A DNA stretch of 33,961 bases, from contig JAFGHO010000073.1 of NCBI GenBank assembly GCA_016930085.1, positions 1 to 33,961 of the forward strand, read 5' to 3'. Position numbers and translations under genes: made by a program. The DNA comes from Spirochaetales bacterium (GTDB taxonomy: Bacteria > Spirochaetota > Spirochaetia > SZUA-6 > JAFGRV01). Below the pieces are notes generated by a model, which ran no database searches, was not told where the DNA came from, and saw nothing but the letters and a program-made list of their open reading frames with translations. Every line of letters begins with the position of its first letter. Position 1 is the first letter of the stretch. Positions 27,113 to 29,496 of the stretch are shown here, one piece after another.

Positions 27113-27507
27113 AATATCTTCTTCCTGTTACCTGCGACTAAGCCACATATCCCGGTAACACATCATTTGGGGGGAATTTTCACGCAGAAAAAATCCCCTC
27201 CTGCCCGGATGCTTTACCGATACGGCTCTTTTTCCGAAATCGGTGAACCGGTTTTTTGTTTTTCGGCACGGTCATGTAAAGCAACGCGTAAATATGTAAA
27301 AAGGATATAGAATTGCACAAACTGAGTCAATATGTTATGGGACACCTTTATTCCGTTTTTATCGAGATTCCGGTTTTTTATTTCCCACTGTCGCAGCGGT
27401 ATTTCCCCGGCCGTACCGGAAACCGTTCAAGGAAGGATCCCGGTTTGCCGTTGCTTGCATTCTTGAGTATTTTTCTGTACCATGTGTATTGCATACGGGA
27501 GGTCGAT
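27113..27507. other. divergent intergenic region before the TPR lipoprotein
   Basis: 395 bases. Next to the phosphatase start there is an inverted repeat (27126-27160), and a second imperfect hairpin with arms GGGGAATTTT (27171-27180) and AAAAATCCCC (27189-27198). The plus frame of the lipoprotein is open back to about 27313, but no ribosome site supports a longer protein. No good promoter was found. Confidence 0.45.
27126..27160. promoter_or_regulatory. inverted repeat before the PP2C response-regulator gene
   Basis: Perfect 7-bp arms TGTTACC (27126-27132) and GGTAACA (27154-27160), 21 bases apart. On the minus strand the right arm of the RNA hairpin ends just before the AGGAAG ribosome site. 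Operator or leader hairpin; low certainty. Confidence 0.35.
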
Positions 27508-28755
27508 GTGATAAAGACAAACGCCGGGACGATCCTTCGGATACTCATACCGTCATTCATCCTTGTATTCACGATTACCTCATGCCTTTCGGTCGGGAAA
27601 GGGGGATCGAACGAAACAATCGAGGACGTACTCGGGGAAACGGGTATCACGGTTCCCCGCGGTTTTTCCGATATGGCCGTATCGGCCTCGGACAGCGGAC
27701 TTTCGGCCGGAAACGATATCATCCCCCTTCTCTACCTCGAATCGACGTTCGTGGAAGCATCGGATATAAAGGAAACCTGTTCGATTTTAGGCGGACTCGT
27801 CAAGGCCGCCCGAACGTTGTCCGGGACCGCGGACGACCCCCGGGCGGCCCTTGCGCAGACGCTTCGAATGCTCGATGACGACTTCGGGCTGCGATACAGG
27901 GAGGAGAAATCGATAAACCTCGTCTCGCTTTCGCTTCCCGGCCACCGGTACGACCACGATACGGGAATGTTTGTTTTTCTCGCCGTCGCCGAAGAACTCT
28001 CGTGGCCCCTTTATCCGGTGCGGATACCCAACCGCTTTATTCTCCGCTGGAAGGACGGGCGGAATGCATTCGACTTCGATATTACCACCGGGGAAGTGCT
28101 TTCGGATGACGATATCAGAAAGCGCTACAGCGGGGGCGGGAAGAAGTTTCCGGGCGGGATGTATTTTAAAGCGATGGGGGCACGGGAGATTGCCGGTGTG
28201 TATTATAATGCGCTCGGGCTTTTTGCCTTCCACACATTCGATTATCAGGCCGCGTTGGGCTATTTCGACAGGGCCGCATCGTATGCGCCGGGGCTGGCCG
28301 TCATCTATAACAACAGGGGAAATACCTTTGCCTCGCTGCACCGCTATGAAGATGCTTTCAGCGATCACGCCGAGGCGATTTCCCTGAATCCCTTTTGCGC
28401 GACATGTTATAAAAACAGGGGCGAGTTGAACCTCCTGCTCGAACGATATGATAAAGCGGTTCGGGATTTTACGGCCGCAATCGGTCTCGAACCGGATAAT
28501 GCGGAGTTCCCGTATCTTCGCGGCGCGGTTTTTTTTGCGATGAATGAATACGAAAGGGCCGAAGAGGATTTTACCGGAGTGCTTCTGCTCGACGGGAATC
28601 ACGTGATGGCGCTCATCTATCGGGGGATGACCTTTTTCCAGCGGAATCAGACGGGGAAGGCGGTCGATGATTTCAGGCGGGCGTATGCGATCGAACCGAA
28701 AAGCATCATGTACGTGCCCGATACCCTGAAAGGAAGCGTAAGGAAGGGAAAGTAA
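27508..28755 (+). CDS. SirB1-like (Transglut_core2) / TPR lipoprotein
   Basis: A 415-residue predicted lipoprotein. I take the GTG at 27508 as start because GGGAGG lies 5 bases upstream and it places a normal signal sequence (10-25) before the lipobox ITSC, Cys26. Residues about 100-240 resemble the SirB1/transglutaminase-core-2 domain: LAVAEELSWPLYPVRIPNRFILRW and the AFDFDITTGEVL strand, equivalent to the 'GLPGHFLVR ... DPF.G' pattern. The usual catalytic Cys region is not conserved, so it may be inactive. Residues about 245-400 contain at least four TPR repeats (YYNALGLFAF, VIYNNRGNTFASLHRYEDA, ATCYKNRGELNLLLERYDKA, ALIYRGMTFFQRNQTGKA). Probably a surface-facing scaffold; partner unknown. 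Confidence 0.75.
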   Translation: MIKTNAGTILRILIPSFILVFTITSCLSVGKGGSNETIEDVLGETGITVPRGFSDMAVSASDSGLSAGNDIIPLLYLESTFVEASDIKETCSILGGLVKAARTLSGTADDPRAALAQTLRMLDDDFGLRYREEKSINLVSLSLPGHRYDHDTGMFVFLAVAEELSWPLYPVRIPNRFILRWKDGRNAFDFDITTGEVLSDDDIRKRYSGGGKKFPGGMYFKAMGAREIAGVYYNALGLFAFHTFDYQAALGYFDRAASYAPGLAVIYNNRGNTFASLHRYEDAFSDHAEAISLNPFCATCYKNRGELNLLLERYDKAVRDFTAAIGLEPDNAEFPYLRGAVFFAMNEYERAEEDFTGVLLLDGNHVMALIYRGMTFFQRNQTGKAVDDFRRAYAIEPKSIMYVPDTLKGSVRKGK

Positions 28756-28786
28756 TCTGACGACGCTGTACAGGCGGCCGGGTAAA

Positions 28787-28792
28787 TATAAT
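28787..28792 (+). promoter_or_regulatory. -10 element of the OB-fold lipoprotein gene
   Basis: Perfect TATAAT at 28787-28792. The -35 region is weak. The predicted transcription start (about 28799) falls inside the palindrome that follows. Confidence 0.5.
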
Positions 28793-28795
28793 TTA

Positions 28796-28821
28796 CGACA
28801 TATGTCGTACGACATATGTCG
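28796..28821. promoter_or_regulatory. perfect 26-bp palindrome over the transcription start
   Basis: Two copies of the self-complementary CGACATATGTCG separated by TA, so each half and the whole are perfect palindromes. It lies 3 bases after a TATAAT box, over the expected transcription start, and ends where the Shine-Dalgarno (GGGGGAGG, 28821-28828) begins. Placement is that of a repressor operator; as RNA it would be a very stable hairpin beside the ribosome site. Confidence 0.8.
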
Positions 28822-28832
28822 GGGGAGGTTTC

Positions 28833-29291
28833 ATGAAAGGAAGAACGATGTTCATCTCAACCGGGGTTTTTGTCGTTCTCGTTCTGGCGGGCGGATGCAG
28901 TACGGCCATCGGGGCGATCAGAGATAATCCGGAAGATTTCGCGGGCAGGGAGGTGACCGTTGCGGGAAATGTCGTGAACGTGATCACTGTCCCGTTTGCC
29001 GGACTCTCGATAATCAGTCTTGAAGACCGGACGGGAAATGCCGTCGTCTTTTCGGACAAGCAATACGGGACGGGACAGGCGGTTGTCGTCACGGGCACTG
29101 TCGTGGCATTGCCTTCCACGGACGAAGCCGAAGACGCCTCTGAAAAGGCGGTAAACTGGCTGCGTGATTACCTCATCGAAAACGATATCGTCGATAAAGC
29201 CTTTGCCGGAGGACTCGCCGGGGGGATCGTCAAGGCGATAGAGGGAATAGCAGGCGGACTTCACACGATATTTTTCATTGTCGAATCCTGA
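28833..29291 (+). CDS. small OB-fold-like lipoprotein
   Basis: A 152-residue predicted lipoprotein with an N-terminal hydrophobic stretch (7-20) and lipobox LAGGC (Cys22). The mature part begins AIRDNPEDFAGREVTVAGNVVNVI, then ISLEDRTGNAVVF and GTGQAVVVTGTVVALP. This is the 'pathway of strands' layout of small periplasmic OB-fold proteins (tRNA_anti-like/NirD-like). The C-terminal third (about 105-150) is helical and Gly/Ala-rich (AFAGGLAGGIVKAIEGIAGG). The ATG at 28833 has GGGGGAGG 4 bases upstream. It is controlled by the 26-bp palindrome. No specific function can be given. Confidence 0.8.
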   Translation: MKGRTMFISTGVFVVLVLAGGCSTAIGAIRDNPEDFAGREVTVAGNVVNVITVPFAGLSIISLEDRTGNAVVFSDKQYGTGQAVVVTGTVVALPSTDEAEDASEKAVNWLRDYLIENDIVDKAFAGGLAGGIVKAIEGIAGGLHTIFFIVES

Positions 29292-29496
29292 TGTTTTTTC
29301 TCCGCTGAAATTATCGGTTTTCACCGGATGAATTCCGGATAATCTATTGATTCAGGGAGAAAAACCAATTACATTATTTTCATAACAAGAGTGAACGTGT
29401 CCGTTTATTCCGGCGGCAGGTTTCTTTTTTACGGAAATTATCGTCCGGCAATTATCCCGGTTTGATGATATAGTTAAAAAAAGGGGGAACAGGTTA

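Follow-up and report, generated by a model that had tools for sequence, protein, structure and literature searches.

A perfect palindrome of 26 bp lies between a gene for a TPR protein and a gene for a small lipoprotein-like protein in the genome of a Spirochaetales bacterium, and it raises the question of whether such an element was built to control the gene that follows it or belongs to something wider. The original prediction proposed that it binds two cooperating repressor dimers or forms a very stable RNA hairpin next to the ribosome-binding site. The reading that we favor, at about even chances, is that the element is a tandem-duplicated member of a palindrome family whose members serve as sites for a candidate dimeric DNA-binding protein. 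We refer to the whole 33,961-nucleotide stretch of DNA analyzed as the window; it comes from contig C73 of a 5.36-Mb assembly in 135 contigs (the source genome, G000).

The palindrome is an exact tandem duplication

Positions 28796-28821 form one perfect 26-bp palindrome, CGACATATGTCGTACGACATATGTCG, just where it had been predicted, with two exact copies of the 12-mer CGACATATGTCG (28796-28807 and 28810-28821) joined by TA. About 0.0005 palindromes of 26 bp or longer are expected in the window, and the longest found in 100 third-order Markov shuffles was 22 bp. The nested symmetry is present as described, but it is not an independent observation, being equal to an exact 14-bp tandem duplication (Table 1). 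Since the 12-mer and its TA linker are each self-palindromic, duplication yields the nesting automatically, and a cooperating pair of dimers therefore gains no further support from it. The 26-mer was found nowhere else at two or fewer mismatches in the 61 genomes searched, and its W-degenerate core was absent from the genome_contigs and viral_contigs collections, from which the source genome itself had possibly been left out. The lipoprotein locus is not the only place where the unit has been duplicated, since a further tandem array of related 13-14-bp units lies at G000:C16:14160-14217.

Table 1. Features at and around the palindrome, in window coordinates.
Feature	Position	Strand	Remark
P0002, TPR protein with transglutaminase-like stretch	27313..28755	+	upstream neighbor
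TATAAT, -10-like	28787..28792	+	without acceptable -35 hexamer at 16-18 bp
14-bp unit TACGACATATGTCG, copy 1	28794..28807	.	exact match
14-bp unit, copy 2	28808..28821	.	100% identical to copy 1; completes the 26-bp palindrome
GGGGGAGG, Shine-Dalgarno-like	about 28821..28828	+	adjoins palindrome; first G common to both
P0001, small lipoprotein-like ORF, 152 aa	28833..29291	+	ATG at 28833

The TATAAT, the Shine-Dalgarno-like GGGGGAGG and the ATG flank the palindrome in the predicted arrangement, with the palindrome beginning 40 bp past the stop codon of P0002 and stopping 11 bp short of the P0001 start. For P0001, described as an OB-fold-like lipoprotein, the translation shows a lipobox-like LAGGC; the OB-fold is unproven, with Pfam matches (DUF5818 and DUF4131) only below threshold and a single-sequence structure model that has several strands and a mean pLDDT of 42, too poor for a fold search.

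A genome-wide family of palindromes

A genome-wide search placed the unit, as the degenerate pattern CGACAWWTGTCG, at 40 places in G000 against 1-3 expected, both intergenic and coding. With many of these places inside genes, the unit was not built for the lipoprotein gene. The reversed pattern, used as a control, occurred 0 times in G000, 0 in G004, 0 in G002, 2 in G001 and 4 in G003. The family spans 12-16 bp with the consensus TACGACA-WW-TGTCGTA, its center mostly AATT and less often ATAT, as at the lipoprotein locus. In a scan of G000 for ACGACA-N0..9-TGTCGT, 16 of the 23 matches had a spacer of 2.

The AATT-centered members are strongly over-represented: CGACAATTGTCG occurs 31 times in G000 against 0.3-1.8 expected under Markov models of orders 1-4 (trained on 211 kb of DNA with the motif masked), and the corresponding 14-mer, ACGACAATTGTCGT, occurs 15 times. 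In an additional 400-kb sample of G000, consisting of large contigs and the window, CGACAATTGTCG was found 0 times against about 2.3 expected. Over all 31 AATT sites conservation covers exactly 16 bp, TACGACAATTGTCGTA, with information near zero outside it, so that G000 has no conserved sequence beyond the palindrome core of the kind sought for REP- or MITE-type elements. This sharp and symmetric 16-bp conservation resembles the site of a dimer, unlike a longer dispersed repeat.

Mechanical ORF calling put 12 of the 31 AATT sites between genes (P 1.4e-4 at 12% intergenic DNA, 8e-3 at 19%), and the number rose to 15 of 31 (P 7e-7) when L053, L063 and L075, which lie upstream of credible starts, were reassigned by hand. 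The remaining 16 coding copies compare with about 0.3 expected from codon usage, and their reading-frame bias matches the codon-usage prediction. Both coding copies checked against PDB homologues, in ornithine carbamoyltransferase (G000) and adenosine deaminase (G100), align without gaps and thus arose in place rather than through insertion. The sites cluster locally, with 7 pairs within 10 kb against 1.7 expected (P 0.003 on the 135-contig assembly). No common function was seen by eye among the neighbors of the 15 intergenic sites. At one family site, in L080, a long inverted repeat around CTACCATAGTAG (about 1995-2043) directly adjoins the palindrome and is presumably flanked by a divergent TrmB-like regulator and an efflux adaptor-like gene. 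Elsewhere in G000, L266:16720-16753 (C61) holds a 34-bp perfect palindrome, TCCGTACAAGGCAATTATAATTGCCTTGTACGGA, unrelated in sequence to the family.

The ATAT-centered members are the weakest link for the window, because their enrichment in G000 is modest: CGACATATGTCG has 7 matches at 6 places, against about 1 expected (P 7e-4). We assign the lipoprotein-locus element to the family on the basis of its shared arms and of G004, a genome of the same family as G000 that was examined separately and carries the exact ATAT 14-mer 4 times, alongside 7 copies of the AATT form.

Sporadic distribution among spirochaetes

Among the relatives of G000, CGACAWWTGTCG occurs 63 times in G004, 7 times in G002 and 0 times in G001 and G003. 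The count in G002 is low although it is a congener of G004, an odd finding if the motif served an architectural role that is essential. Of 296 genomes sampled from the phylum, 59 had any match and only four had more than 3 copies: G106 (125), G000 (40), G168 (23) and G154 (5). We took G106, G168 and G154 to be G100, G101 and G098, and matched them to the MAGs ADurb.Bin133, Go_SlDig_bin_318 and Zod_Metabat.719, respectively, as counts and listed coordinates agree. The family is thus absent or nearly absent across most of the sample, and high counts of one and the same 12-mer fall in two groups that stand apart, family f1 and genus g93.

In G100 (ADurb.Bin133), many of the motifs lie inside a longer mosaic intergenic repeat of AT-centered palindromes; they may stem from a repeat in that genome, where the history of the motif may differ. 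For this mosaic (L232-L251), we counted in 384 kb of DNA CGGGAATTCCCG 16 times, ACGCATATGCGT 14 times, CGACAATTGTCG 37 times and a recurring 12-mer, TTGACACATATG, 66 times. In G004, three intergenic copies of TACGACAATTGTCGTA, 115 and 97 bp apart, occupy L186:3284-3511 (C33), upstream of what we take to be a carB-like gene.

Candidate binding proteins

The same 16-mer occurs outside the phylum. Pairs of TACGACAATTGTCGTA spaced 30-31 bp apart were found at five Saprospiraceae/Bacteroidota loci, and in all three of the Saprospiraceae/Bacteroidota genomes searched TACGACAATTGTCGTA stands upstream of one PF03965 (BlaI-type) gene, where the pair is likely an autoregulatory operator. Paired copies upstream of a PF03965 repressor gene are seen in L223, L225 and L229, and pairs are also present in L133, L165, L167, L177 and L198. 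Despite this precedent a BlaI operator was rejected for G000 because PF03965 is absent there (0 matches, 14 candidates scored). Nor was a PF03965 gene found in G002, G100 or G101, and where G004 and G098 have such a gene, the flanks examined lacked the motif.

A Noc-like second ParB was sought with HTH_ParB in G000 and G004. None was found beside the one chromosomal ParB, and the candidate was rejected, the second weak match in both genomes being a different protein. L285 (G000:C88) and L286 (G004:C592) encode homologous proteins with weak HTH_ParB matches, absent from G001-G003, which we take to combine a DUF1016-like N-terminus with an SNase-like C-terminus.

The idea of a dimer's site draws support from the symmetric 16-bp conservation together with two precedents, the BlaI-type arrangement in Saprospiraceae and the operator of mycobacteriophage BPs described below. 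On sequence grounds, a dimeric and sequence-specific protein would read the family at tens of chromosomal sites, binding TACGACAATTGTCGTA or TACGACATATGTCGTA DNA. Such a protein might organize the chromosome or time division, in the manner of SlmA, Noc or MatP, or might be a very broad regulator. On the duplicated copy, two dimers could sit next to each other, with centers 14 bp apart, across the 5' leader, and any effect on the lipoprotein gene would be local and recently gained. The palindrome is best seen as a putative generic protein-binding site, which is more likely than a switch made for the lipoprotein gene; an operator of this one gene, or a hairpin at the 5' end of its mRNA, is less likely but possible.

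Alternative explanations

The alternative that survives best, though an unlikely one, is a double operator specific to this gene, at which cooperative binding of two repressor dimers or a tetramer would keep the lipoprotein gene from being transcribed. The position of the palindrome between the TATAAT and the Shine-Dalgarno sequence suits such a role, as do two known systems: in the cited parts of the work on mycobacteriophage BPs, exactly CGACATATGTCG serves as half-site, two of which make up a full operator (PMC4557955), and operators of the CopY/BlaI type likewise come in pairs, the published CopY operator being given as RNYKACANNYGTMRNY in the passages cited (PMC7253601). Placement exactly over the expected transcription start, as had been claimed, was not borne out, since a promoter scan of 28400-29400 returned 0 sigma-70-like sites. 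The comparison of homologous genes also went against a conserved operator. The P0001 gene is present in 12 of 98 genomes (the source genome and relatives), and between -300 and +30 of the match start a CGACAWWTGTCG-type palindrome is missing at all 11 non-self homologues, among which 3 are of the same family; two of the 11 carry unrelated 10-12-bp palindromes there. The lack of a usable -35 and the absence of the motif at the homologues leave a conserved operator of this gene without support, and we rejected it. Of the proposed pair of repressor dimers, then, the dimeric site finds support and the conserved operator does not. The occurrence of the unit at 40 places, some inside genes, the lack of a PF03965 protein in G000 and the BPs spacers, named as 5 and 8 bp in the cited passages as opposed to 2 here (PMC4557955), weigh against this alternative as well.

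A second alternative, less probable still, is that a methyltransferase together with a repair bias creates and keeps the copies, as for the highly iterated palindromes (HIPs), and that no protein uses them as operators. The parts of Elhai 2015 cited here (PMC4390886) describe short, GC-rich HIPs, the main one of 8 bp and alternates among them, that occur 1000-2000 times per Mb and are tied to methyltransferases. HIP1 and the alternate HIPs resemble the spirochaete family in being over-represented palindromes that arose in place within genes and are sporadic among relatives. They are shorter, GC-rich and hundreds of times denser: the spirochaete palindrome measures 12-16 bp and reaches about 6 per Mb when the 31 AATT copies are counted (40 CGACAWWTGTCG places in 5.36 Mb), far below the hundreds or thousands per Mb expected of a HIP.

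We give little credence to a hairpin in the 5' leader that would stabilize the mRNA or tune translation of the lipoprotein. Folding predicts an 11-bp stem of -16.9 kcal/mol (z -3.0) that adjoins the Shine-Dalgarno sequence, so the very stable hairpin of the original prediction is thermodynamically possible, but the hairpin lacks conservation at homologues, and in this fold it makes no pairs with the Shine-Dalgarno sequence. The 101-nt leader counted from the predicted transcript start at 28799 is of ordinary stability (z -0.3), the leader at the palindrome has no Rfam match, and the other family members, in coding and intergenic DNA, are single palindromes that would form a weak stem at most.

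Equally improbable is that the element is functionless, a chance palindrome duplicated in tandem by slippage, as the exactness of the 14-bp duplication, the lack of conservation at homologues and the weak enrichment of the ATAT monomer in G000 would allow, against the strong enrichment of the AATT palindromes that share its arms and the four exact ATAT 14-mers of G004.

Comparison with known systems

If the favored reading is right and the family marks sites for a chromosome-wide protein, it would offer a handle on chromosome organization and timing in uncultured spirochaetes and an example of a protein-binding motif spreading in place through coding DNA. The locus also carries a caution, that nested palindromes can be mere tandem duplications. 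A more specific proposal, which we put forward tentatively and regard as rather unlikely, is that TACGACAWWTGTCGTA would be a chromosome-organizing site of Spirochaetota not described before, acting in nucleoid occlusion or in a macrodomain and under selection in place within genes and between them. At least two lineages (family f1 and genus g93) would each have acquired it when its binding protein was transferred to them, and the lipoprotein-locus copy would be a duplicated, high-occupancy site.

Of the three open PMC articles that contained the exact 12- to 16-mers, the BPs paper alone looked relevant, the other two dealing, by their listed entries, with glioblastoma cells and rapeseed markers. 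Among listed titles and abstracts on palindromic repeats of spirochaetes, whether short or over-represented, nothing matched. Compared by site sequence, the 12-mer is identical to the half-site of the BPs gp33 operator, which the cited passages place in five phage regulatory regions, usually with one half-site degenerate, and with spacers that are variable and wider than in the spirochaete palindrome (PMC4557955). Set against the TACA/TGTA-like dyad of BlaI, MecI and CopY operators, the palindrome has the ACANNTGT core and differs in its flanks; paired TACGACAATTGTCGTA occurs in that setting too, whereas G000 is without a PF03965 gene.

Closest in length and copy number are the sites of SlmA, Noc and MatP. 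As summarized in parts of two reviews (PMC3116907, PMC4726725), SlmA sites of Escherichia coli measure 12 bp and number 50 (24-52 in the other review), Noc sites of Bacillus subtilis measure 14 bp and number about 70, and the matS sites of MatP measure 13 bp and number 23. The spirochaete family differs from all three in sequence and is sporadic among congeners; like them, as far as these summaries describe them, it consists of palindromes, here 12-16 bp long, of which each chromosome carries tens, inside genes and between them, and which follow no single regulon.
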